The notes beneath the pieces are model-generated. The model did not search any database and had not been told where the DNA came from. It saw nothing but the letters and a program-made list of their open reading frames with translations. Shown piece after piece: positions 1-10,417 of a DNA stretch of 10,417 nt. Each line of letters opens with the position of its first letter. The stretch's first letter is position 1. The stretch comes from Pseudolysobacter sp. (lineage in GTDB: Bacteria; Pseudomonadota; Gammaproteobacteria; Xanthomonadales; Rhodanobacteraceae): the NCBI GenBank assembly GCA_025351985.1, contig JANXUW010000201.1:1-10417 (forward strand). The letters run 5' to 3'. The translations under genes were made by a program, and so were the position numbers.

Positions 1-687
1 CTCGTCATGCCTGGCGGCGATGGCGACAACCAGATCACCTGGGAACTCACCGGCCACGTCTGGCAGGAAGAACCCTACACCGACGAATCGCGCAAGATCG
101 GCTACAACCCGAAATCGGTCAGCGAAAGCACCAAGACCGGCTATGGCGCGGCGAGCGCGTATGACATCGTGCTCGACGATACTCCGGGCACGACGCCATC
201 CGGCGGACGTTACGGCGTGCCGGGCGATTACCTGTATCGCGGCTGGACCGCGAACATTTTCCAGGGCGGTGCGTGGGGCGTGTTCCGCGTCGCACCCTGG
301 ACGCCGCACGGCAACGTGCGACTGCCGGATACGGTCGGCATCTCGTCGGTGAGCAATGCCGCCGGCGTCACCACGATCAGCGGCTTCACCACGCCGTGTC
401 CGGTGACGGTGCAGGATGCGGGCGGCAAAGTGATCTGTCGCGCCGGTGGGTTCGTACCGCAGGTAACGCTGAGCGGAGGCGGTACGGCCAAGGTCGTCAA
501 CGGCCTGTGGACGCTGACGAGCAAGGCATCGGTGAACACCGCGTTCGATGTGACCTCGCCCGCCGGCGGTGTCGCAGCGTGGAAAAATACCGCGGTACCG
601 TTGCTCGCAGCGAGGGCGGAAATCGCGCCGCAGGCAGTTCAGACCAAGACCTTGCCGAATCGGCCGAAACGGTTGCCGCGTCACTGA
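1..687 (+). CDS. Multicopper oxidase-like protein, C-terminal part (5' end outside window)
   Basis: The reading frame is open from base 1 (Leu-Val-Met) to TGA at 685-687, giving 228 visible residues of a gene that starts upstream. Residues about 1-100 look like the last cupredoxin domain of a large multicopper oxidase: the stretches WELTGHVWQEEPY, then GVPGDYLYR, then GAWGVFRVAP have the spacing and wording of the C-terminal end of MnxG/McoA/MofA-like oxidases as I remember them. Such enzymes oxidise a metal or organic substrate at a type 1 copper and reduce O2 at a trinuclear copper centre, outside the cytoplasm. No HCHxxxH ligand motif is present in the visible part, so catalytic competence cannot be judged. 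After the usual end (about residue 100) there are some 128 more residues: a beta-rich segment with two cysteines (C133, C146) and a basic tail. The in-frame ATG at 7 is almost certainly internal. The gene overlaps the next by one base (TGATG), which suggests translational coupling. The substrate is unknown; manganese is only a guess. Confidence 0.75.
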   Translation, partial: LVMPGGDGDNQITWELTGHVWQEEPYTDESRKIGYNPKSVSESTKTGYGAASAYDIVLDDTPGTTPSGGRYGVPGDYLYRGWTANIFQGGAWGVFRVAPWTPHGNVRLPDTVGISSVSNAAGVTTISGFTTPCPVTVQDAGGKVICRAGGFVPQVTLSGGGTAKVVNGLWTLTSKASVNTAFDVTSPAGGVAAWKNTAVPLLAARAEIAPQAVQTKTLPNRPKRLPRH

Positions 688-2597
688 TGCGCTACTTACT
701 CGCCATGCGTTTTACGGCGCTCGCCTGCCTCGTATTGGCAGCGCGTGCGTACGCCGGTGGAGCGCCGCAGTCGGCGGGGAATCCGACGACCGACACGCGC
801 TCGCCGCCAGCGTCCGTGCCTGCGCAACACGAAGTCGACCAAGGCATCGCGGTGGGTTTCAGCGCGTCGCCACCCGCGCACAAGGGCGATCCGATCACGT
901 TCGGATTCACCCTCACCGATACCGCCAGCGGCACGCCGATCAGTGGCGTGCGTCTGGCGGCATGGCTGGTCGCGCATGACCAGAATGCGCCTGATAAAAA
1001 CGGCAGCAAAACGCCGCAAAGTTGCAAGCAACAGGTCGCCACTTACCTCAGCGCCGATCTGTTCCGGCGCGCCGATATCGACCTCAACAGCTATTACGTG
1101 CTGTCGCTGAACGACGACAACTCGATCAGCGTGGTCGATCCGCTGTTCGGTTTCGGCGGCTCGCAATTGCTCGCGATGTTACCGCTCGCGAGCCGCGCCG
1201 CGGACTGGGCGCTGGCGACGCAGAACGACGCGTTGTTCGTGACGATGCCGGCGAGTGGCAAGGTCGCGATCGCCGATACACGAAGCTGGAAAATCGCCGA
1301 CACCATCGCCACCGGGCCGAATCCTCGCCGCATCGTAGTGCAGGCCGGACGCGCGTGGATCGCCGATGATGAAGGCCTCAGTGTCATCGATATCAAAACG
1401 CACGTATTGAACCGGCTGCGTTTCGGCGCGACACGTGAACTCGCGATCAGCAACGACGGCGATTTCGTCTTCGCCGCGGGCGAACACGATGTGGTGATCG
1501 TCGATGCGCACGCCGCAAAAATCCTTGCCGATATCGTGATCGACGGCACGCCCGGTTTGCTCGCGTATTCGAATGCCGCCAAAGCGATCTACGCCGCCGA
1601 TACCGCGGCCGGCAAACTCTTCGCGATCGATGCGCGCAGCCATGCGATCACGACCACTGTCACGATCCGCCCCGGCGCGACGCAAATCCGCTTCGCGCCC
1701 GATGGCCGGCACGCGCTGATTCCGAATCCGCAGCAGAACGTGGTGCAAGTGCTCGACGCGGCGAGCAATCGCATCGTGCAGAGTGCGGACATCGGCGACG
1801 GCCCGGATCAGGTCAGCTTCACGTCGCTGCTCGCGTATGTGCGCCGACGCGCGAGCGAAACCGTGGTGATGATTCCGCTCGATCAGCTCGGCGTCGAAGG
1901 CCATGCGATCGGCGTTGCGGATTTCCCGGCGGGTCAACACGCGCTGGGCGATGGCAGCCTCGCCGATTCCATCGTCAGCGCGCCGGACGAACCCGCCGTA
2001 CTCGTCGCGAACGCCGCCGACAAGATGATTTATTACTACAAGGAAGGCATGGCCGCGCCGGCCGGCGGATTCAACACCTACGGCGCCACACCGCGTGCGG
2101 TGCTGGTGGTCGATCACGGTTTGCGCGAACGTGAGCGTGGCCGTTACGCGACCGCGTTGCCGGTGAAAAAACCCGGCGCCTATGACGTCGTGATGTTCGT
2201 CGATGCGCCGCGCGTGGTCGCGTGTTTCGGCCTGACCATCGCCGCCGAAAAAGAGGCGGTGGAAAAACCGCTGACGCGTGTCACCGCGATCAATCCGCCG
2301 CGCGAGTTGCAGGCCGGCGCGACGGTGCGATTGCAGTTTGCGCTGAGTGATCCTTCGCGCAAGGAACAACGCCACGCCGACGACGTGCGTGCGCTCGCGT
2401 TCGAGGCGCCCGGCGTGTGGCAGCGACGCGGCGATCTGAAACGTCTCGCCAACGGCAATTACGAACTCGAATTCATTCCGCCGAACGCAGGCACGTATTA
2501 CGTCTGGATCGAATCGGACGCACTCGGCCTGGCGCACAACAACTCGCAATTTTCGGTGTATCAGGCGATCGATCCAACGATCAACCAGACGAATTAA
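687..2597 (+). CDS. Exported YVTN/YncE-like beta-propeller protein
   Basis: A 636-residue protein. The ATG at 687 overlaps the preceding stop and opens directly into a signal peptide (basic MRYLLAMR, hydrophobic core, cleavage likely after AYA at residue 23), so the protein should be periplasmic. ATG 705 (Met7) is a possible alternative start, and neither start has a strong Shine-Dalgarno site. Domains in order: an Ig-like beta domain about residues 45-110 (GDPITFGFTLTDTASG); a linker with C113 and the phrase SVVDPLFGFGGS; propeller blades recurring about every 40 residues near 181, 224, 262, 302 and 344, each of the type 'FVTMPASGKVAIADT'; a segment MIYYYKEGM at 447-455; and a second Ig-like domain about 527-628 (LQFALSDPS to GTYYVWIES). 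No heme-binding CxxCH is present. Related propellers include YncE and the cytochrome d1 type, which bind ligands or partner proteins. Its position right after the oxidase suggests an accessory or scaffold role for that enzyme; this is inference. The open frame extends upstream to 273, but that part is a shadow of the oxidase gene. Confidence 0.85.
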   Translation: MRYLLAMRFTALACLVLAARAYAGGAPQSAGNPTTDTRSPPASVPAQHEVDQGIAVGFSASPPAHKGDPITFGFTLTDTASGTPISGVRLAAWLVAHDQNAPDKNGSKTPQSCKQQVATYLSADLFRRADIDLNSYYVLSLNDDNSISVVDPLFGFGGSQLLAMLPLASRAADWALATQNDALFVTMPASGKVAIADTRSWKIADTIATGPNPRRIVVQAGRAWIADDEGLSVIDIKTHVLNRLRFGATRELAISNDGDFVFAAGEHDVVIVDAHAAKILADIVIDGTPGLLAYSNAAKAIYAADTAAGKLFAIDARSHAITTTVTIRPGATQIRFAPDGRHALIPNPQQNVVQVLDAASNRIVQSADIGDGPDQVSFTSLLAYVRRRASETVVMIPLDQLGVEGHAIGVADFPAGQHALGDGSLADSIVSAPDEPAVLVANAADKMIYYYKEGMAAPAGGFNTYGATPRAVLVVDHGLRERERGRYATALPVKKPGAYDVVMFVDAPRVVACFGLTIAAEKEAVEKPLTRVTAINPPRELQAGATVRLQFALSDPSRKEQRHADDVRALAFEAPGVWQRRGDLKRLANGNYELEFIPPNAGTYYVWIESDALGLAHNNSQFSVYQAIDPTINQTN

Positions 2598-2619: not shown

Positions 2620-4494
2620 ATGTCGAGCAATGCTGCAACACCGGTCCAGCCGCAATACACCTACAACCCGACCACCAAGACTTATCACCTCGTACATTTC
2701 ACCACGCCGGGCTGCAATAACGACTTCCCGAACAATCCGGCGGCGTATGCGAGGCTCGCGCAGGCGTGGAGCCAGAACGTCAACGGTTTCACCAACCAGG
2801 CGATCACCGGCAATCCGTGGAACTCGCTGTTCTCCGCGCAGCAGACGGCGTATTACAACCCGCTGGTCACGCCGATTCCCGCCGGCTCGGGCGCGGTCGA
2901 CGTGGCGTGGATCGCATTTCCGAATCGGCTGGAGCAATACCTCGGCAAGAACCAGATACCGCCCAATCCGAACAACCTGGACATGGATACGCTGTATCAG
3001 CTGGCCGACACCGGCCAGCTCGGTCAGTACCAGATTCCGCAAACGCGTTGTCCACAAGCGGACTGGAAAGGCCAGCTCGAAGCGTATGGCCCCTACGGCC
3101 CACGCGGCTGGCTCGATGAATATTGCGAGTTCAGCGTCGTGCGCAACAGCGGCGGCAAAATCACGCGTATCGATTTCACCTGCGAAAATCCCGAATATTT
3201 CCAGACATTATGGCGTATCGATCCGCAGACGGTGGCGGACGTCTACACCTCGGCGCTCAACATGGGTACGCCGCAAAACCAATGGGTGAAGGTCACAGTC
3301 GCTGACCTGACCTTGGTGGATCCAGTCACTGGCGGGCGTGTAATCGATCCGCAGACCGGCCTGCCCGCCTACAACCCGTTGAACCGGTGGAACAGCGGCA
3401 CGACCGCCGTGCGCACCGGTAGTGCGTCGGGTTTCAGCGGCGGCGCGATGCACCTGACCGCGACGCCGAACACCTTGCAGACCGAGCTCGGTCTCGGCGC
3501 TGGCGCCACCGTGCAGCGCAGCGCGGGCAACACCGATCCGCAGGCGCTGATCTGCTGCGGCCAGTACGGCCAAAACTACCGCAACAGCGATCCGCACATC
3601 GGCCAGTCCATCAACCTGGCGGTCGGTGCGGGCTTCAATATTTCGCTGGCCGATCCGCCGGGACTTTACATCCAGATGCCGAGCTTCGCGCAATACGTGC
3701 TGCCGGCGGACCCGAAGTTGCCGAGAGGCGCGCGCGCGTCCGACTGCTGGCAGATCGTGCGCGGCTTCGAAAAAATCATCGATCCGATCACCAATGCGCC
3801 GTTTCCGGGTTCGTTCATCCTGCATGCGGCGTTCCAGATTCCGCAGGCATGGATCGACGCGGGCGTTTCATTCACGGTGGGCGACATCCTGATCGCTGGC
3901 AAAAACATCAAGTGGGGCTCGCAGGTGGCTGCCACGCTCGAGATCGCGCTGTTCGGCCGTCCGATCGCGCCGGTCGTTCCCGCGCCCCAGCTGGCCTGCG
4001 TCATTCCGTCCACCACGATCCAGGCACAGCCGCTGCAGATCATGTTCCAGAATCTCTGGAACGCTTATTACGGCACAAAAATCAACACGCCCTCCGGCGT
4101 GCAGATGGTGCTGGCGAGCAACTCCAGCATTATTCCGCCGACGTTGCGCACGGGCGCGGCGAATGTTCCGCTCGCCCTCACCTACGCGGCACCGTCGGGC
4201 ACCACGCCATTACCACAACCGCAGTGGCCGAATGTGGTTTTCACGCTGCCGAACGGGCAGGCCGACCCCACGATCAGGACCGCGGTCATCGGCTTCAACC
4301 CCAATGTGTCTTACGCCGTGCCGGGCAATACATACCCGAGTTCGTCGCAGTTGCTGAATCTTCAGGTCAGCGTCGCGGGGAATGCGCCGGCCGGCGTGCG
4401 CGGCGTCGTGATCGTGCCGTTCGGACAGACGTTTTCGCCAGCCATCACGCCGGCGCCGGCGTTCCTCGTTATCGCATCATCGACCACAGCCTGA
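2620..4494 (+). CDS. Uncharacterised 624-residue protein without signal peptide
   Basis: The start is fixed by a strong AAAGGAG site. The N-terminus (MSSNAATPVQPQYTYNP) is polar with no signal peptide, lipobox or transmembrane segment, so the protein looks cytoplasmic, unlike most neighbours. Recognisable landmarks are GWLDEYCEFSVVRN (D166-E167-Y168-C169), FTCENPEYF shortly after, MHLTATPNTL (M277, H278), an ICCGQYGQNYRNSDPHIG stretch (adjacent C312 and C313, R321, D324, H326), then LADPPGLYIQMP and SFTVGDILIAGKNIKWG. These match what I recall of a scattered family of bacterial hypothetical proteins with DEY(L/C)E(W/F), CENPEYW and RNSDPHIG motifs; I know no function or family name. Residues from about 470 on look like a beta-sandwich (VPLALTYAAPSG, LLNLQVSVAGNAPAGVRG). 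The clusters of Asp, His, Arg and Cys could be an active or metal site, but this is speculation. It lies 22 bases after the propeller gene and 10 before the next gene, so it is in the same operon. Confidence 0.8.
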   Translation: MSSNAATPVQPQYTYNPTTKTYHLVHFTTPGCNNDFPNNPAAYARLAQAWSQNVNGFTNQAITGNPWNSLFSAQQTAYYNPLVTPIPAGSGAVDVAWIAFPNRLEQYLGKNQIPPNPNNLDMDTLYQLADTGQLGQYQIPQTRCPQADWKGQLEAYGPYGPRGWLDEYCEFSVVRNSGGKITRIDFTCENPEYFQTLWRIDPQTVADVYTSALNMGTPQNQWVKVTVADLTLVDPVTGGRVIDPQTGLPAYNPLNRWNSGTTAVRTGSASGFSGGAMHLTATPNTLQTELGLGAGATVQRSAGNTDPQALICCGQYGQNYRNSDPHIGQSINLAVGAGFNISLADPPGLYIQMPSFAQYVLPADPKLPRGARASDCWQIVRGFEKIIDPITNAPFPGSFILHAAFQIPQAWIDAGVSFTVGDILIAGKNIKWGSQVAATLEIALFGRPIAPVVPAPQLACVIPSTTIQAQPLQIMFQNLWNAYYGTKINTPSGVQMVLASNSSIIPPTLRTGAANVPLALTYAAPSGTTPLPQPQWPNVVFTLPNGQADPTIRTAVIGFNPNVSYAVPGNTYPSSSQLLNLQVSVAGNAPAGVRGVVIVPFGQTFSPAITPAPAFLVIASSTTA

Positions 4495-4497
4495 GGA
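4493..4497 (+). promoter_or_regulatory. Ribosome binding site overlapping upstream stop (GAGGA)
   Basis: GAGGA begins inside the TGA stop (4492-4494) of the 624-residue gene and lies 7 bases before ATG 4505. It favours ATG 4505 over the second in-frame ATG at 4514 and implies that translation of the two genes is linked. Confidence 0.75.
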
Positions 4498-4504
4498 CGA
4501 GACC

Positions 4505-6067
4505 ATGACTCCCATGAAAAACTCCATCGTGTTCTGCGCCTTGGCTTCGACGTTGTTGTTGGCCGCCTGCAACCAGGAGACTACCAAAAGCTCGACCAAA
4601 CCCGCCGAGGTCACGCCCGCGGCCAGCACCGCCGCGGTGCAGCCTCCGGCCGATGCGGCGGCGGCGCTTGCCGCCGGCTCAACCAGCAATTGTCTCGCAC
4701 CGCCGTTCCTGGTTTCCTCGACCAGCGGCAAATATCCCTACACGGTACCGCCCGATTTTGCGCTGACGCGCCAGGCTGATGCGAACTGCTTCGCGTGGCA
4801 GCAGTTCATCGCGTTGAACTGGGTCGCCTCGACCAGCCAGCGCGGACAACCAAATACGGCGGTGTCGGCGGCCAACTTCGGCACGCCCAACGACCAGCGC
4901 GCGACGGTGTGGGAAACCTACAAGGAATCCGACGAGGTGTTTCTCGCCGATGCAAAAAATCCCGGTCAATGGAACTACACCGCAACCGCGGCCGAAAACG
5001 TCAAGGTGCTCGGCGGTCTGCGCTCGGAAGTCGCCGCCAAGCCGGTGCTGGACCTGAGCGCGATCGGCCAGGCTTCTCAAGGCAGCCCGTGGCTCACCGC
5101 GCAAAGCAAGATCCTGACCTTGTACGAGCGCCGCATGAATGAGGACGAGTACAACTATATCGTCAAGAACAACCTCTACAACGCCGTGACGCAGCAGACT
5201 TTCGTGGTCAAGCCGGGCATCAGCCTGCCGGATGGCACCCCGGCCAGCTCGGCGTACGGAAACACAGGCTCGATCGAAACCAAGGCGGCATGGCTCGAAC
5301 TTCCCAACGCCGCGGACTGGCCGAGCTTCAAGGTATCGAAAGCGATCGTGACCTATCCGAATCAGCCATCGAAAACCGTGGTGGTGGGTCTGGTGGGATT
5401 GCACATCATCCACAAGACCGCGCTCGGCCAGCAGTTCATCTGGGCGACGTTCGAGCACAAGCGCAACGCGCCCGATGTCAACCAGGTGGCGAGCCGCACG
5501 TTCACGCCGCCGTACACGTATTACAACGTCAACTGCAATCCGAATACGGACTACTACAAGTGCGTGGCGAACGCCAATCCCGCCAAGGTGAACGGCGGCA
5601 AAAATCCGTACAACGCGCCGATCCAGACCGTGCGCCAGACGCCGATCGCGACACGTCCGAACAACGACGTGGCAGGGCTGAACCAATACGTGTGGTCGCA
5701 GGTCATCGCCAAGCAGAATCCGAACTCGGTGTTCCTCAACTACGAACTCGTCAATACGCTGTGGTCGAACCAGAACACGACCATCCCGCCCGGTACGCGC
5801 ACGCCGCTGGTGGCGACGCAACTCTCGCCCGGGCCAAGCCAGGAGCCGGTTTCGAACGCAACGATGGAAACTTACGTGCAGAGCCTCACCTGTCTGGATT
5901 GCCATGCGTCGGCACCGATCGCGACGTTGAAAAAAGCCAACACGCTGAAGATCTACGATCCGGCGACGGCGGGTACGGAGGCGACCAAGGCCAATCCGTT
6001 TGCGTCGGATTATTCGTTCCTGCTCGGCAATGCCACGCAGCCGAAATCGCCCCACGCGAAACATTGA
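4505..6067 (+). CDS. Monoheme cytochrome c-like lipoprotein
   Basis: A 520-residue protein. It begins with a lipoprotein signal peptide: MTPMKNS, a hydrophobic core, and lipobox LAAC with the lipidated cysteine at C22, followed by Asn. It is therefore probably anchored by lipid, facing the periplasm. A low-complexity Ala/Thr/Pro/Ser linker runs to about residue 60. The main domain has FAWQQFIALNWVAS, then VGLVGLHIIHKTALGQQ (H300, H303) and FIWATFEHKRNAP (H318). A single c-type heme motif, CLDCH, lies near the C-terminus (C463, C466, H467). The wording is familiar from bacterial proteins annotated only as 'cytochrome c family', with no known reaction. The heme attaches through the two cysteines and H467 is its proximal ligand; the distal ligand is not evident. 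The long non-heme domain suggests more than a simple electron carrier, perhaps a heme-linked oxidoreductase. The gene lies 10 bases after its neighbour and is followed by a 32-base gap. Confidence 0.8.
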   Translation: MTPMKNSIVFCALASTLLLAACNQETTKSSTKPAEVTPAASTAAVQPPADAAAALAAGSTSNCLAPPFLVSSTSGKYPYTVPPDFALTRQADANCFAWQQFIALNWVASTSQRGQPNTAVSAANFGTPNDQRATVWETYKESDEVFLADAKNPGQWNYTATAAENVKVLGGLRSEVAAKPVLDLSAIGQASQGSPWLTAQSKILTLYERRMNEDEYNYIVKNNLYNAVTQQTFVVKPGISLPDGTPASSAYGNTGSIETKAAWLELPNAADWPSFKVSKAIVTYPNQPSKTVVVGLVGLHIIHKTALGQQFIWATFEHKRNAPDVNQVASRTFTPPYTYYNVNCNPNTDYYKCVANANPAKVNGGKNPYNAPIQTVRQTPIATRPNNDVAGLNQYVWSQVIAKQNPNSVFLNYELVNTLWSNQNTTIPPGTRTPLVATQLSPGPSQEPVSNATMETYVQSLTCLDCHASAPIATLKKANTLKIYDPATAGTEATKANPFASDYSFLLGNATQPKSPHAKH

Positions 6068-6086
6068 TATCGCGCCACTGAGAATC

Positions 6087-6091
6087 GAGGA
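6087..6091 (+). promoter_or_regulatory. Ribosome binding site (GAGGA)
   Basis: GAGGA lies 8 bases before ATG 6100 and supports that start. The 32-base gap around it shows no hairpin or promoter-like boxes that I can recognise. Confidence 0.65.
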
Positions 6092-6099
6092 TCGAGAAC

Positions 6100-6930
6100 A
6101 TGGATCAGCAATCCGTTCCAAGCTGGCTCGCCGCATCGTGGCAGCGCCTCTGGGTGATCAACAACAACCAGGGCCCGCCGAAGGACACGGTCAACGTGCG
6201 CAACATCCAGACGCCGACCTTGTTCGGCGACTGCCGCATTCCGAAAGACCGGCCCGCGTTTCCCGACGCGAAATCGCTGGCCGACCTGACCGATGCGCAA
6301 TTGAAAACGCTGTATGCGCAGGAAGGTTTCAGCGGCTACACCACGGTCGAGGGTTACATCATCACGTGGCACCACGAGATCGGTTACCAGCCGCCCGACG
6401 GCACGATCGACATCGGCCGTTTCGAGATCCTCGGCGGACGCAACGTACTCGAACACGGCGTGCAGGCGGTGTACCTCGAACACTGGTGGCGGCTCGAACA
6501 ATCCGGCCGCGATTTCCTCGGCGTGAAGGTGATGCGCAAGCTCGGCGACGGTCGCCAGCGTGTGCATGAAATCCTGTCGGTGAGCGGCGATCATTTCATC
6601 TACGCGCGCAATCGCGATTTCGATCTGCCGATGGCGAACTCGCTGGCCGACCTCATCAAGCAAGAAAAATATTCGCGCAAGCAGATTCTCGCGGTGCTCG
6701 ATTGCGAGGTGTCGCACGGCTTCGTGCTTGGCGGTCGTTGTCCGTGGGAAGTGCAGTTCTCGACGTTGCCGTTCAAGGAAAACAAGCCGCTCGATTTCGC
6801 CAAGCAGATCGTGGTCGATCCGAAAACCGGCGTGCTTTCGCATCGCGGTGGCACGCCCGACCTGAGCTGGTCGTTCCCGATCAACACGCTGAATATCGAA
6901 GATCTGCTCGTGCTTTTTCCGCCAGCGTGA
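6100..6930 (+). CDS. Uncharacterised 276-residue protein, possibly Hri1/lipocalin-like
   Basis: The protein starts MDQQSVPSWLAASWQRLWV and has no signal peptide or membrane segment, so it is predicted cytoplasmic. The order of motifs is NVRNIQTPTLFGDCRIPKDR near residues 27-46, SLADLTDAQLKTLYAQEGFSG near 53-73, ITWHHEIGYQPP near 88-99, DIGRFEILGGRNVLEHG, YLEHWWRLE, and a C-terminal half with SVSGDHFIYARNRDFDLP. Alternating beta strands, the 'TPTLF-D-RIP-DRP' element and the 'WHHEIGYQPP' element recall bacterial relatives of the Hri1-type double lipocalin-like fold as I remember it; this assignment is weak. Such folds bind small ligands in a barrel. The paired Trp residues and the HH pair could line a pocket. 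It sits between two exported heme proteins in the same operon, which is unexpected for a cytoplasmic protein. No function is assigned. Confidence 0.75.
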   Translation: MDQQSVPSWLAASWQRLWVINNNQGPPKDTVNVRNIQTPTLFGDCRIPKDRPAFPDAKSLADLTDAQLKTLYAQEGFSGYTTVEGYIITWHHEIGYQPPDGTIDIGRFEILGGRNVLEHGVQAVYLEHWWRLEQSGRDFLGVKVMRKLGDGRQRVHEILSVSGDHFIYARNRDFDLPMANSLADLIKQEKYSRKQILAVLDCEVSHGFVLGGRCPWEVQFSTLPFKENKPLDFAKQIVVDPKTGVLSHRGGTPDLSWSFPINTLNIEDLLVLFPPA

Positions 6931-6941
6931 AACCCCATTCC

Positions 6942-6946
6942 AGGAG
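6942..6946 (+). promoter_or_regulatory. Ribosome binding site (AGGAG)
   Basis: AGGAG lies 7 bases before ATG 6954. It sets the start of the second monoheme gene inside a longer open frame that extends back to 6702. The signal peptide that begins at 6954 agrees. Confidence 0.8.
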
Positions 6947-6953
6947 TCGAACC

Positions 6954-8732
6954 ATGTACCGATTGATTGCAAGTCTCACCCTCGCGCTTGGCGTTTGCGC
7001 GCTCGCGCAGGCCGACACCGGCAAGGCAACCCAGATCTCGCCGCGCCACGCTACCGATGCGAGTCCGCACCTGCTCGCGGCGCGCGCGCCGGGCACCGCG
7101 CACTGCCTGATCCAGAACAACAACACAGGCAATCCACTCGCCGCCGGCAGCAACGACGATGCCTTGTTCAAGCTGCTGTCGGCGCAACCACGCTGCCCGG
7201 AAAACGCGCTGATATTTCGCGACCTCGTACTCGCCAGCAAGATGACCCTGCATCCGGCGATGGTGGCGAATCGCGGTTTCCACAATCCGTTGCCGCAGGG
7301 CAGTTTCAGTTTCTTCGAATCGGTGCAGGGCGCCTACGCCGGACAAACCCTCGCGCCCGGCGACTGGTTCTTCGGCCACTTCACCGCGGCGTCGATCGAC
7401 AATGTCGCACTGACCAGCATCATGGCGCCGCAACAGGCCGCGACGCCCGATAATCTGCTGCTCGAGACGCTGGTGTGGGATCCGAAAAAACAGGTGTTCA
7501 ATTTCTACGAAATCCGCGGCACCGGCCAGGGCGGCGAGTGGTTTTATCGCGGCGACTCGGTCGATATTCTTGCCGACATCGCCAACCTCGACCGCGCTTA
7601 CGATGCCTCGCAACCGATCTTCATGGGGCCGCTCGATAGCGGCAAGGCGAGCATGCCGCGGCTGCGTTGCTCGGGCTGCCACATGAACGGCGGGCCGATC
7701 ATGAAGGAGCTGAAAACGCCGCACGATTCGTGGTGGACGGTCGAACGTCCGCTGGATTTCGGCGCCCTGCGCATCGCGCCGGAATTCAACACCATCCTCG
7801 CCAATCTGGTCAGCGCCAACGAACTGGAAAAGTGGATCAAGGCCGGCGACGAGAAACTGCTGGCGAGCGCGCCGTTCTGGAAAACGCGCTCCGCATTGTC
7901 GTTGCAGGAACAACTGCGTCCGCTGTTCTGCGAGCAGGAAGTCAATCTCGAATCCGACCCGCAGCCGTTCGAAGGGCCGGATACCAACATCCAGGCGCCG
8001 ATCGGCGCGTTCGTCGATCAACGTCTTGTGCCCGACCAGCAAACCATCAGCATCAGCAAGGATCTGTACACCGCTTCGCTGACGTTGTTCCAGTCGCAGT
8101 TCATCGATTACCAGAGCGGCGGATTCGCCAACTCGGTGCAGCCGATCAACCAGATCGACGCCGACCACGCATTCGAGACGCCGGTCAAATCGCATAGCGA
8201 CATGCTGGTCGTCGACAAACTCGTCGCCGCCGGCGTGGTCGATCAGAAGTTCGTATTCGATGTGCTCGCCACCGACATGACCCGTCCGATGTTTTCGTCC
8301 GGCCGTTGCGGCTTGCTGCAGAAGCTGCCGGCTGGCCCAGCGAGCGGAGACTGGAAAACCAAGTTCCAGCAGAACCTCGCGAACGCGAATTCTGCGGCGG
8401 CAAAAGAGCTGCTCGCCAACCTCGGCGATCCGGCGCGCACACCGGCATATCATCGCGCCAAGGCCAAACAACTCATCGCAAAAATCCAGAGCAACGCCGC
8501 GCAACAGCCGGCCGTGAACGGTTATGTGCGACTGCTCACGCAACGTCGTATCGCGGTGTACCAGGCGCAGATTTCGCAGCATCCGCAAGGGCAGATTTTC
8601 GAGCCGGGTTTCCGCCTGATTTTCCCGACCATGCAGCTGTTCCAGAAGAACCAGCAGCAGATTGCGTACGGCGGCGTGCCGGATCAGTATTGGCTGAATC
8701 CGGCGACCGGCGCCGTGGAATTGACGGAGTAA
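6954..8732 (+). CDS. Exported monoheme cytochrome c-like protein, uncharacterised family
   Basis: A 592-residue protein with a Sec signal peptide (MYRLIASLTLALGVCALAQA, cleavage likely after A20), so periplasmic. A single c-type heme motif, CSGCH, sits mid-protein (C239, C242, H243) inside RLRCSGCHMNGGPIMKEL. The preceding segment FNFYEIRGTGQGGEWFYRG and DSVDILADIANLDR, and the following HDSWWTVERPLDFG, are features of a family I recall only as hypothetical or cytochrome-c-like. M245 two residues after the heme His, and GGPIMKEL, are possible contributors to the heme site; the distal ligand is not established. The C-terminal 250 residues are mixed alpha/beta and end in a segment GQIFEPGFRLIFPTM. 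The protein is far longer than a simple class I cytochrome c, so it may be a redox enzyme or an adaptor in the oxidase pathway. Its last bases carry the Shine-Dalgarno site of the next gene, which starts 3 bases after the stop. Confidence 0.8.
   Translation: MYRLIASLTLALGVCALAQADTGKATQISPRHATDASPHLLAARAPGTAHCLIQNNNTGNPLAAGSNDDALFKLLSAQPRCPENALIFRDLVLASKMTLHPAMVANRGFHNPLPQGSFSFFESVQGAYAGQTLAPGDWFFGHFTAASIDNVALTSIMAPQQAATPDNLLLETLVWDPKKQVFNFYEIRGTGQGGEWFYRGDSVDILADIANLDRAYDASQPIFMGPLDSGKASMPRLRCSGCHMNGGPIMKELKTPHDSWWTVERPLDFGALRIAPEFNTILANLVSANELEKWIKAGDEKLLASAPFWKTRSALSLQEQLRPLFCEQEVNLESDPQPFEGPDTNIQAPIGAFVDQRLVPDQQTISISKDLYTASLTLFQSQFIDYQSGGFANSVQPINQIDADHAFETPVKSHSDMLVVDKLVAAGVVDQKFVFDVLATDMTRPMFSSGRCGLLQKLPAGPASGDWKTKFQQNLANANSAAAKELLANLGDPARTPAYHRAKAKQLIAKIQSNAAQQPAVNGYVRLLTQRRIAVYQAQISQHPQGQIFEPGFRLIFPTMQLFQKNQQQIAYGGVPDQYWLNPATGAVELTE
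8726..8729 (+). promoter_or_regulatory. Ribosome binding site inside upstream gene, deciding a GTG start
   Basis: GGAG, within ACGGAG, lies in the last codons of the 592-residue gene and 6 bases before GTG 8736. It supports the GTG start of the first SCO gene and indicates coupled translation. Confidence 0.7.
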
Positions 8733-8735
8733 GCG

Positions 8736-9311
8736 GTGCGCAATTTGCTGGGAGTTGTCCTGTTCTTCGGCAGTGTGGCGGCGGTGTTTGCCGCCGCCGC
8801 ACCGAGCGGTGCGGCGAAATATTTCGACGGCATCACCTTGATCGATCAGGACGGACGCAGCGTCGATCTTTACCGCGACGTGATCGCCGATCATGTCGCG
8901 GTGATCCACACGTTTTTTGCGGGCTGCACGGCGAGCTGTCCGGTCGTCATGAGCACGTTGAAATCGCTGCAAGGCCAGCTCGGCACGAAGCTCGGGCGCG
9001 ACGTGCGCCTTATCTCGATCACGGTCGATCCGGCGCACGACAGCCAGCACGCGCTGAAGGAATATGCGCAACGTCTGAATGCCAAACCCGGCTGGTATTT
9101 CCTGACCGGATCGAACGATCAGATCGCCGCCGCGCTCAAGCATATCGGCCAGTACACCGCCGAACCGGATACGCATATGGACCTGATCGTGGCCGGCAAC
9201 GACCGTACCGGGCTGTGGAAAAAAATCAACGGTCTCGCGACGACAGCCGAGATCAACAGCCTCATCATGGGCGTGGTCGACGATCAAGGCGCGGCCGCGG
9301 TCGCGAAATAA
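8736..9311 (+). CDS. SCO1/SenC-family copper chaperone-like protein (first copy)
   Basis: A 191-residue protein starting at GTG, 3 bases after the upstream stop. It has an N-terminal signal or anchor segment (LLGVVLFFGSVAAVFA), so it acts in the periplasm, either free or membrane-tethered. It has a thioredoxin-like fold with the SCO copper site: GCTASCP gives CxxxC at C64 and C68, and DTHMD gives the distal histidine at H147. LISITVDPAHDS is the usual SCO 'ISxDPxxD' element. SCO proteins bind Cu through the two Cys and the His, and deliver copper to, or reduce cysteines of, copper oxidases such as the CuA site of cytochrome oxidase. No cytochrome oxidase subunits are visible here, so the operon's multicopper oxidase is a plausible client; that is inference. 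The stop codon falls in the loop of a hairpin. Confidence 0.93.
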   Translation: MRNLLGVVLFFGSVAAVFAAAAPSGAAKYFDGITLIDQDGRSVDLYRDVIADHVAVIHTFFAGCTASCPVVMSTLKSLQGQLGTKLGRDVRLISITVDPAHDSQHALKEYAQRLNAKPGWYFLTGSNDQIAAALKHIGQYTAEPDTHMDLIVAGNDRTGLWKKINGLATTAEINSLIMGVVDDQGAAAVAK

Positions 9312-9320
9312 TCGCGGCCG
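9298..9320 (+). other. Stem-loop spanning the stop codon of the first SCO gene
   Basis: CGGTCGCGA (9298-9306) can pair with TCGCGGCCG (9312-9320) over 9 bp with one G-U pair, closing a five-base AATAA loop that holds most of the stop region (TAA at 9309-9311). No U-run follows, so it does not look like a standard intrinsic terminator. It could weakly attenuate transcription, protect mRNA ends or affect termination at the stop codon. High local GC makes chance hairpins common. Confidence 0.5.
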
Positions 9321-9407
9321 TAGGCATCGTCGCGATTGATCCTCCGCACGCTTTCGTTCAACCCGAAAAACTGCGATTCCGTGCAAAAAAACCAAGGCCG
9401 TTGCTGT
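9312..9407 (+). other. Largest intergenic gap (96 bases), between the two SCO genes
   Basis: The only gap of note in the operon. It contains the 3' arm of the hairpin, a seven-base A run (9385-9391) and AAGG at 9394-9397, a modest ribosome binding site 10 bases before ATG 9408. I see no convincing -35/-10 pair. An in-frame TTG at 9336 would extend the second SCO protein, but the extension does not look like a signal peptide. Confidence 0.5.
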
Positions 9408-10004
9408 ATGCGTTTCAGATTTGTCTTGCCCATGCTGAGTCTCCTGCTGGCGTGCTCCGCTTACGCGCAGGAGCATCGTCATCCCATCAGCATTGCGAGG
9501 GGCAGCGAAAAAATCGCTACACAATCCATCGCCGATGTGAACGTGATCACGCAGGCTGATCGATCCGTGCGTTTCTACAGCGATCTCGTGAAAGGCCGAC
9601 TCGTGGCGGTCAATTTCGTCTTCACCGATTGCGGCACCGTCTGTCCGCTGATGGGTTTGCGTTACGCGCAACTGCAGAATCTGCTCGGTGCGCTGGCGAG
9701 CGATGTATCGCTGCTTTCGATCAGCATTGACCCGCTCACCGACACGCCGGCGCGGCTCGCGCAATGGAGCCAGAAGTTTGGCGCGAAACCCGGCTGGACG
9801 CTCGTCACCGGCGGCAAGGCGGATATCGATACACTCGTGAAATCGCTCGGCTCATCCGCGGTGGATCCGGCCTCGCATTCGCCGTTGCTGATCGTGATCG
9901 ATGATAAACATGGCGGACCGTGGCAACGCCTCGATGGGCTCGCCGAGCCGACGACCATCGCGCGTATCCTGCGCGAACATCTCGCACCGCCAGACAAACA
10001 ATGA
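9408..10004 (+). CDS. SCO1/SenC-family copper chaperone-like protein (second copy)
   Basis: A 198-residue protein from ATG 9408. This start is chosen because it opens directly into a signal peptide, MRFRFVLPMLSLLLACSAYA, cut after A20; an imperfect lipobox ending at C16 makes a lipoprotein possible. The SCO copper site is complete: FTDCGTVCP gives C75 and C79, and ASHSPLL gives H157. LLSISIDPLTDTPARL is the conserved ISxDPxxDT element. The protein is clearly divergent from the first copy: it shares the motifs (both also have AKPGW and a TG step before the His loop) but little else, so the pair is an old duplication or two recruited paralogues. One may load copper and the other may reduce the metal-site cysteines, a split described for SCO-like proteins elsewhere; which does what is unknown. 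It overlaps the next gene by four bases (ATGA). Confidence 0.93.
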   Translation: MRFRFVLPMLSLLLACSAYAQEHRHPISIARGSEKIATQSIADVNVITQADRSVRFYSDLVKGRLVAVNFVFTDCGTVCPLMGLRYAQLQNLLGALASDVSLLSISIDPLTDTPARLAQWSQKFGAKPGWTLVTGGKADIDTLVKSLGSSAVDPASHSPLLIVIDDKHGGPWQRLDGLAEPTTIARILREHLAPPDKQ

Positions 10005-10417
10005 TTCTGCTGCACATGGGCTTTATCGCCATCGTCATGCTGGGCGCCGGATCGACCGAACAACAGCAACGCGGTCGCGAAATTTTTCTGCATGGGCAAG
10101 CCGACAGCAATCGCAACATCGATGCCACGCTCGGCAACAACAGTGCCGTCATTTCGGCCTCGCTGCTGCCGTGCGCGAATTGCCACGGCATCGACGCTCG
10201 CGGCAAGTCGGAAGGCGGCGTGCATCCCGCCGATATCACGCCGGCCGCACTCGCTCGCAGCGCCACGGTCGGCTCACGTTCGCGACCGGCGTATACACCG
10301 AGCTTGCTCAAGCGCGCGATCACGATGGGACTCGACAGCGCCGGTTATCCGCTTGACAACGCGATGCCGCGCTTTCGTTTGAGACAGCAGGATGCAAGCG
10401 ACTTGCTGGCCTATCTC
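10001..10417 (+). CDS. c-type cytochrome, N-terminal part (3' end outside window)
   Basis: The frame is open from ATG 10001, which overlaps the preceding stop as ATGA, to the window edge: 139 residues. The N-terminus MILLHMGFIAIVMLGAGS is a short hydrophobic export signal. A class I cytochrome c domain follows: RGREIFLHG, then heme motif CANCH (C58, C61, H62) in LLPCANCHGIDARGKSEGG, and a probable axial methionine M122 in NAMPRFRL, followed by the closing helix DASDLLAYL. Heme is bound covalently through C58 and C61. No Shine-Dalgarno site is evident, so translation probably depends on coupling. The style of this domain (GREIFL, 'LKRAITMGLD-AG--LD-AMPRF') resembles proteins in which a cytochrome c is joined to a periplasmic substrate-binding-protein-like domain; whether that holds here lies beyond the window. 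Role: electron carrier in the oxidase module. Confidence 0.88.
   Translation, partial: MILLHMGFIAIVMLGAGSTEQQQRGREIFLHGQADSNRNIDATLGNNSAVISASLLPCANCHGIDARGKSEGGVHPADITPAALARSATVGSRSRPAYTPSLLKRAITMGLDSAGYPLDNAMPRFRLRQQDASDLLAYL

Follow-up and report, generated by a model that had tools for sequence, protein, structure and literature searches.

Gene content and organization of the locus

The window examined here, a 10,417-nucleotide stretch of a Pseudolysobacter sp. genome (contig JANXUW010000201.1 of assembly GCA_025351985.1), comprised the entire contig C237 of its source genome, G000, whose assembly is fragmented (766 contigs; completeness, 86%). Nine genes, all on the forward strand, were found in the window: the end of an oxidase gene homologous to mnxG, a beta-propeller gene, four genes designated A, B, C, and D, two genes for SCO-type copper chaperones (SCO1 and SCO2), and the 5' part of a cytochrome c gene (Table 1). 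The initial annotation had singled out A to D, and four same-strand genes were indeed present between the propeller gene and the SCO pair, with the boundaries originally called. It had taken this block apart from the oxidase; the flanking genes identified the operon as mnxG-like, and A to D very probably belong to it. Intergenic gaps from the propeller gene through A, B, C, and D to SCO1 were 22, 10, 32, 23, and 3 bases, so that one transcript is likely. A forward-strand pattern scan of the block returned one promoter-like and one terminator-like site, both within gene D, and whole-window counts were close to the shuffled background (2 versus 2.2 promoter-like sites; 16 versus 11.4 terminator-like sites, standard deviation 4.1). 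Each gene had been credited with a good ribosome-binding site of its own; those of A (AAAGGAG) and D (AGGAG) were strong, and those of B and C (GAGG) were moderate.

The order A-B-C-D was kept at all six uncut Rhodanobacteraceae loci (the window and related loci L004, L006, L007, L010, and L011), in line with the earlier proposal of a dedicated, conserved unit. L008 carried A, B, and part of C, with the contig ending inside C. Contig searches with A returned seven loci, which came from Tahibacter species, two Rhodanobacteraceae or Lysobacterales metagenome-assembled genomes (MAGs), Massilia horti, and a Bacteroidetes MAG. In M. horti (L009), A and B lay between the propeller gene and SCO1, with no C or D within the 13.7 kb read, and the Bacteroidetes locus (L012, a 6.3-kb contig cut just upstream of A) contained A and B. 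The block is real and conserved, and it is a known operon type in a variant form with undescribed accessory families, not a new kind of system.

Genes A and C had no N-terminal hydrophobic segment and no CxxCH motif, and genes B and D had both a hydrophobic N-terminal segment and a single CxxCH. The description of the block as alternating heme proteins was correct for B (CLDCH) and D (CSGCH); the candidate reading of all four products as heme proteins was rejected, as A and C have no CxxCH, which leaves the term "unexported heme proteins" unsupported. The alternation of signals (absent, present, absent, present) was seen but is unremarkable alone, as 2 of 16 arrangements alternate. The repeated occurrence of A-B, and of the block in full, does exceed chance. 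None of the four proteins, whose functions the initial annotation had described as unknown, matched a family over the cutoff in Pfam or NCBIfam scans. Sequence searches of the PDB (A, B, and D) and profile searches (A to D) returned nothing credible (the lowest E value, 0.0098, came from the D profile and was a short match to collagen), and no description of these families was found in the literature searched, coverage of which mostly excluded subscription papers.

Table 1. Features of the window, with positions numbered from its first nucleotide
Feature	Positions	Strand	Basis or remarks
MnxG homologue, C-terminal 228 amino acids	1..687	+	NF041487 match; start off contig
Exported beta-propeller protein	687..2597	+	TIGR03866; position matches propeller gene of Pseudomonas mnxG operon
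Gene A, 624 amino acids, long-form A family	2620..4494	+	Charged fraction 0.096; 8 Cys; neither signal peptide nor CxxCH
Gene B, 520 amino acids, lipoprotein, one heme c motif	4505..6067	+	Translation, alignment
Lipobox LAAC of gene B	4559..4570	+	Read from translation
Heme c motif CLDCH of gene B	5891..5905	+	Read from sequence; C463, C466, and H467 invariant in B alignment
Gene C, 276 amino acids, no signal peptide, HRI1-like family (tentative)	6100..6930	+	Alignments of relatives
Gene D, 592 amino acids, signal-bearing, one heme c motif	6954..8732	+	Translation, alignment
Heme c motif CSGCH of gene D	7668..7682	+	Read from sequence
SCO-type copper chaperone 1	8736..9311	+	PF02630, E = 1.6e-16
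SCO-type copper chaperone 2	9408..10004	+	PF02630, E = 3.1e-17
Cytochrome c protein, cut by contig end	10001..10417	+	PF00034, E = 1.2e-6; 384 amino acids in G001 (L005, 1059-2213)

Resemblance of the flanking genes to mnxG operons

The oxidase fragment matched NF041487 (copper_ox_MnxG; E = 2.3e-8) at profile positions 1790 to 1893 of 1894 and matched at 94.7% the end of an 1,886-amino-acid frame in G001, a genome of the same genus (loci L004 and L005). The motif HCHFYPHF was present in both full-length MnxG relatives read (L011 and G001). Matches to NF041487 in G000 and its relatives came in several pieces, none of which reached the 3,100-bit cutoff, so that the product is called MnxG-like here and is not taken as a proven manganese oxidase, with Mn(II) as its presumptive substrate. 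A matching N-terminal part of the oxidase was located on contig C622 of G000. The oxidase gene is shared by the two contigs, and the end of C622 resembled the window start (positions 1 to 80) without being identical, a pattern that strain variation interrupting the assembly would give.

The propeller gene (TIGR03866, E = 6.3e-17, under the cutoff) followed the oxidase gene directly in the window and in L006, L010, L011, L057, and L058. Two SCO genes and then a cytochrome c gene completed the window (positions 8736 to 10417). In L006, L010, and L011, SCO2 and the cytochrome c gene lay upstream on the other strand, and A-D-SCO1 was still found behind MnxG and the propeller. The operon order given for Pseudomonas putida GB-1 in the accessible part of one report is mnxG, propeller, SCO, SCO, cytochrome-c-domain protein, and SurA (PMC11409713), and in the accessible part of another a figure legend gives the same kinds of genes and the text five additional operon genes (PMC8218464). 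The window shares with that operon the order oxidase, propeller, two SCO genes, and cytochrome c but differs in the insertion of A to D between the propeller gene and the SCO pair, in having no SurA gene, and in an MnxG homologue that scores under the equivalog cutoff. No SurA-like gene was found in the window or, by reading without a family scan, in the gene calls downstream of cytochrome c in G001 (L005); one was present in L058.

Among the 197 genomes of the family sample, A was found in nine and MnxG in six, and all six with MnxG also had A. The A-bearing genomes without an MnxG match were G682, a fragmented genome in which the place of A agrees with L008 and a piece of the propeller gene precedes A, and G672 and G722, which had A-B. 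By coordinates, several of these genomes are the same as named loci, and the locus and genome counts are not independent. In the class sample (n = 274), long MnxG-like genes were found in G072, G193, and G067 in addition to the window's own genome, and G061 and G287 had short, weak matches only. The order in G193 was MnxG, propeller, SurA-like, SCO, SCO, and cytochrome c; in G067, MnxG, the propeller, one SCO gene, and cytochrome c were found in a different arrangement; and the contig of G072 ended inside the propeller gene. Genes A to D were not present in the mnxG-like loci of G193 (19.9 kb read) or G067 (15 kb read). B was found in 3 of the 274 class genomes. In the phylum sample (n = 299), three genomes had A (the window's and two others), seven had C (the window's and six others, the latter at low similarity), and just the window's had D; both the class and the phylum samples are thin. 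Plasmid records matching A, B, C, and D numbered 26, 30, 0, and 13, respectively, and 12 stretches were read, two of them without annotated features.

Signal-bearing heme-motif proteins B and D

In B, the N-terminal hydrophobic segment was accompanied by an LAAC lipobox, which was found in the Rhodanobacteraceae members; the Massilia B has an ordinary signal instead. The B CxxCH was kept in all 10 aligned members, down to 28% identity, and the D motif CSGCH was found in all five Rhodanobacteraceae D proteins aligned. Both B and D are CxxCH-containing proteins with a signal, and they are probably exported c-type electron-transfer proteins. Neither matched a Pfam cytochrome c profile at an E value of 1, and NCBIfam gave for B just a signal-region match to cytochro_C551 (E = 0.081, 12.9 of 118 bits). 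Heme attachment at CxxCH is periplasmic and is carried out by the general Ccm machinery; a cytoplasmic maturation step for periplasmic heme enzymes had been suggested for the block, and nothing in the data shows such a step.

Distant relatives of D differed from it. CxxCH was missing from all four read (L019, L020, L021, and L087), and a signal was absent from the three scored (L019, L020, and L021); the D motif His aligned with a conserved His in the three distant relatives aligned. From these differences, it is probable that D gained both features or that the relatives lost them.

Further B-like genes were found outside the operon. G000 carries three such proteins on C681 (L029, 8586-11456) and C646 (L030, 8818-9676), of which two are in tandem, each with a CxxCH, and the third runs off its contig. 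Other B-like genes lay near glucose-methanol-choline (GMC) oxidoreductase genes (L023, 7776-11617; L090, 6668-11018), a placement that would suit a role of B in accepting electrons from various oxidases.

Long and short forms of A

Long A proteins (577 to 641 amino acids) were followed by B at all 15 loci read (the window, L004, L006 to L012, L018, L027, L028, L031, L074, and L075). Eight of these loci are in MnxG-type operons (the window, L004, and L006 to L011), although in the window, L007, L008, and L009, where MnxG is truncated or lies beyond the contig, the operon was recognized from the propeller and other genes. Three were beside a tyrosinase-like gene (L018, L028, and L031), and four had no oxidase gene recognized (L012, L027, L074, and L075). 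The tyrosinase-like/A/B triplets (Paracoccus denitrificans PD1222, Sinorhizobium sojae, and G543) resemble the window in that a long A and then a CxxCH-bearing B stand by a copper oxidase gene. They differ in the type of oxidase, which is tyrosinase-like (assigned from PF00264 in Paracoccus and from similarity to the Paracoccus protein in the other two), and in that no propeller, SCO, C, or D gene was found in the stretches read. The Paracoccus tyrosinase-like protein is signal-less. A survey of the four genes as a unit apart from the oxidase, as the initial annotation had envisaged, found no such unit in the genome-contig, plasmid, family, class, or phylum samples; A-B alone was found.

Short A proteins (368 to 454 amino acids when not part of a fusion) had no adjoining B at any of the seven loci read. 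Three were beside a DyP-type peroxidase gene. In M. horti (L009, 7380-10419), the second A gene and the peroxidase gene (TIGR01413, E = 6.1e-35) come right after the cytochrome c gene, and the pair also occurs in Mycetohabitans (L022) and, by similarity, in Nostoc (L086). At L019, L020, L021, and L087, short A was beside or fused to a D-like protein, with a PLD-like part also fused in L087. In Azospirillum argentinense (L021, 7315-10179), a single 954-amino-acid protein joins D-like and short A parts. The pairs and fusions in Rhizobium, Bradyrhizobium, Microvirga, and Azospirillum have the A and D families in common with the window, here adjoining or fused; unlike the window's D, their D-like partners were without CxxCH (four read) and without a signal (three scored). 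On the Bradyrhizobium plasmid (L020, 13836-27037), B-like, ferritin-like, LodA-like, D-like, and short A genes were found within 14 kb, the B-like gene being about 10 kb from short A, and the same cluster held a gene for a flavoprotein annotated as tryptophan 7-halogenase.

Charge was compared against a background drawn from twelve 20-kb stretches of G001, in which 136 complete genes of at least 200 amino acids were called and 101 products had no internal membrane segment; 60 of these were signal-less, 21 were signal-bearing, and 20 fell between the cutoffs and were dropped. The gene calls and hydrophobicity cutoffs were simple and custom-made, and B and D (scores of 2.21 and 2.57) would themselves land between the cutoffs. 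The charged-residue fraction of A was 0.096 overall and 0.031 for residues 466 to 624, and none of the 60 signal-less proteins was as low (mean, 0.227; standard deviation, 0.035; minimum, 0.146). Exported B (0.137) was below all 81 background proteins, and D (0.174) was near their low end. Long A proteins from MnxG-type operons and from L027, L074, and L075 had fractions of 0.095 to 0.138, and six short A proteins had fractions of 0.220 to 0.230. Cysteines numbered 8 to 12 in long A from MnxG-type and A-B-alone loci and 7 to 9 in tyrosinase-linked long A; four of the six short A proteins counted had 4, the Microvirga fusion had 6, and the Massilia paralogue had 9. Cys 169, 312, 313, 376, and 460 and His278 were conserved in the A alignment. 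The long A of L012 begins with a lipoprotein-type signal. In Massilia, the A frame opens only 3 codons upstream of its ATG, so that a hidden preceding signal is impossible there.

Gene C and its relatives

C had an average charged fraction (0.225), and that of 26 of the 60 signal-less background proteins was no higher. Noncanonical export had been proposed for both signal-less proteins; for A, it is possible in view of the charge and the lipoprotein-type relative in L012, but nothing favors it for C, whose charge is ordinary, and export of C was rejected. Residues common to C and distant relatives included W14, R16, D44-R46-P48, W90, Q97-P98, E127, W129, D201, and E203, among others. The HRI1 profile (PF16815) matched five of nine members of the C alignment in a similar register, with the best match in L063 (E = 2.1e-5) and the other four at E values of 0.03 to 0.12. 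All of these matches were under the gathering score (24.8 bits at best versus 27), and the window's own C matched no Pfam family, HRI1 included. C is tentatively regarded as an HRI1-like protein, like that family in the weak, similarly placed matches of its relatives and unlike it in their scores under the curated cutoff and in the unmatched window sequence. The neighborhoods of five of the six low-similarity C relatives from the phylum sample were read (14 kb each); all five contained the C relative, and a tblastn search found A, B, or D in none. The C relatives at L061, L063, L064, and L065 make up a family without a Pfam name over the cutoff, and the neighbors of the L061 gene include those for an NMT1-type binding protein, a 2OG-Fe(II) oxygenase, and a metallo-beta-lactamase fold protein.

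Possible roles of A to D and alternative explanations

From the observed position, order, heme motifs, signals, and recurrence of these genes, we infer the following roles. A to D would have an accessory function within an mnxG-type oxidase operon that takes a variant form in the Rhodanobacteraceae. B, as a lipoprotein, and D, as a soluble periplasmic protein, would be monoheme electron-transfer proteins serving the MnxG-like oxidase on a metal substrate, probably Mn(II). Long-form A would be the partner of B outside the cytoplasm, either as a subunit or as a substrate- or mineral-facing partner, despite having no Sec or Tat signal, and the chances that it acts outside the cytoplasm appear evenly balanced. 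C would be a cytosolic HRI1-like protein serving D or the operon, a helper role that is about as probable as its opposite. Taken together, the complete picture, in which A to D serve a variant Mnx system as accessory parts, either in electron transfer or within a complex, is tentative but possible.

MnxE and MnxF of the Bacillus Mnx complex are small proteins. In that complex (MnxE, MnxF, and MnxG), the multicopper oxidase MnxG can need further proteins that may bind copper and heme and may act in electron or metal transfer, according to the accessible part of PMC5622069. The window is similar in having an oxidase of this kind alongside further, possibly heme- or copper-binding proteins, and by this analogy B and D may carry electrons, A may be a structural partner of B, and C may be a cytosolic helper.

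Several observations weigh against this accessory electron-transfer explanation. A signal was absent from A in all proteobacterial members read, and no recognizable exporter is encoded in the operon. The signal-bearing background (n = 21; mean charge, 0.214; standard deviation, 0.026; minimum, 0.172) averaged barely less than the signal-less class, so that the charge of A, which lies under both, is unusual and not diagnostic of export. Tyrosinase-linked long A proteins were intermediate (0.156 to 0.188), and the link between charge and export is weakened by the normal charge (0.218) of the signal-bearing A of L012. Structure predictions from shallow alignments were too poor for any fold, both for A (mean predicted local distance difference test score [pLDDT], 47.9; 9 sequences) and for C (pLDDT, 34.4; 5 sequences). 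B-family genes occurred without A in the stretch read at seven loci (L014, L023, L029, L030, L088, L089, and L090), so B does not need A. No genome had an MnxG over the NF041487 cutoff in the family (0 of 197) or class (0 of 274) sample, the homologue here being far below it, and the P. putida mnxG operon, as given in the accessible parts of the reports cited above, is without A to D. In a reactor survey table, the single Tahibacter isolate has 0 in what looks, from the accessible part of the source without its headings, to be the column for Mn oxidizers (PMC7734401), so that it appears as a non-oxidizer.

It is somewhat unlikely that A and C instead stay in the cytosol and act from there on the exported oxidase, B, and D, in their maturation or regulation or by supplying cofactors. 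Both are signal-free in all Rhodanobacteraceae loci, the Massilia A frame leaves no room for a hidden signal, the charge of C is typical, and two SCO copper chaperones are already in the operon. Moreover, short A adjoins or is fused to D-like proteins without CxxCH (L019, L020, L021, and L087, the last with the PLD-like part), which makes the short-A branch look cytosolic. The extreme charge of long A, itself a weak guide, and the lipoprotein-type signal on the Bacteroidetes A speak for a location outside the cytosol, and A-B also occurs beside tyrosinase-like genes or no recognized oxidase, so that there is no single oxidase being matured. Quite unlikely is a passenger origin, in which A-B and C-D entered the operon as two independent redox modules and use its promoter with no part in metal oxidation. 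Such an origin would be consistent with the 7 of 15 long-A loci that have no adjoining MnxG (L018, L028, L031, L027, L074, L075, and L012) and with the Massilia A-B pair, which has neither C nor D in the 13.7 kb read; it is opposed by the retention of A in every MnxG-bearing genome of the family sample and by the three Tahibacter-type loci, which keep A-D-SCO1 behind MnxG-propeller while SCO2 and the cytochrome c gene are on the other strand.

The association of A-family genes with tyrosinase-like (L018, L028, and L031) or DyP-type peroxidase (L009, L022, and L086) genes in unrelated bacteria, the LodA-like gene sharing a cluster with an A-family gene (L020), and the conserved Cys residues and His278 of A would also suit an A-B enzyme, with or without D, that acts as an oxidase or peroxidase toward peroxide or an organic compound, with MnxG or tyrosinase as its partner. 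However, neither a known catalytic fold nor a cofactor site was recognized, and no credible PDB or family match was obtained; this possibility is improbable. A bolder form of the accessory electron-transfer explanation is doubtful. According to it, long A would be a new leaderless family that reaches the surface or periplasm nonclassically and forms an exchangeable electron-transfer module with a B-family cytochrome, joined separately to MnxG-type and tyrosinase-like oxidases, and D would be a member of a cytosolic-type family with an acquired signal peptide and heme c motif that extends the module in the Rhodanobacteraceae.

Implications for MnxG-type oxidation

The A-B pair is a module found beside two unrelated copper oxidases or none recognized, in Pseudomonadota and one Bacteroidetes MAG. 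The findings bear on how MnxG-type oxidases are assembled, on the destination of the electrons, and on what the cell gains from metal oxidation. A clade in which the mnxG-like operon encodes two additional heme-motif proteins with signals, and a partner conserved along with them, would allow a simple genetic test of the coupling of oxidation to electron transfer, and named strains of that clade are Tahibacter aquaticus DSM 21667, T. harae, and T. caeni.

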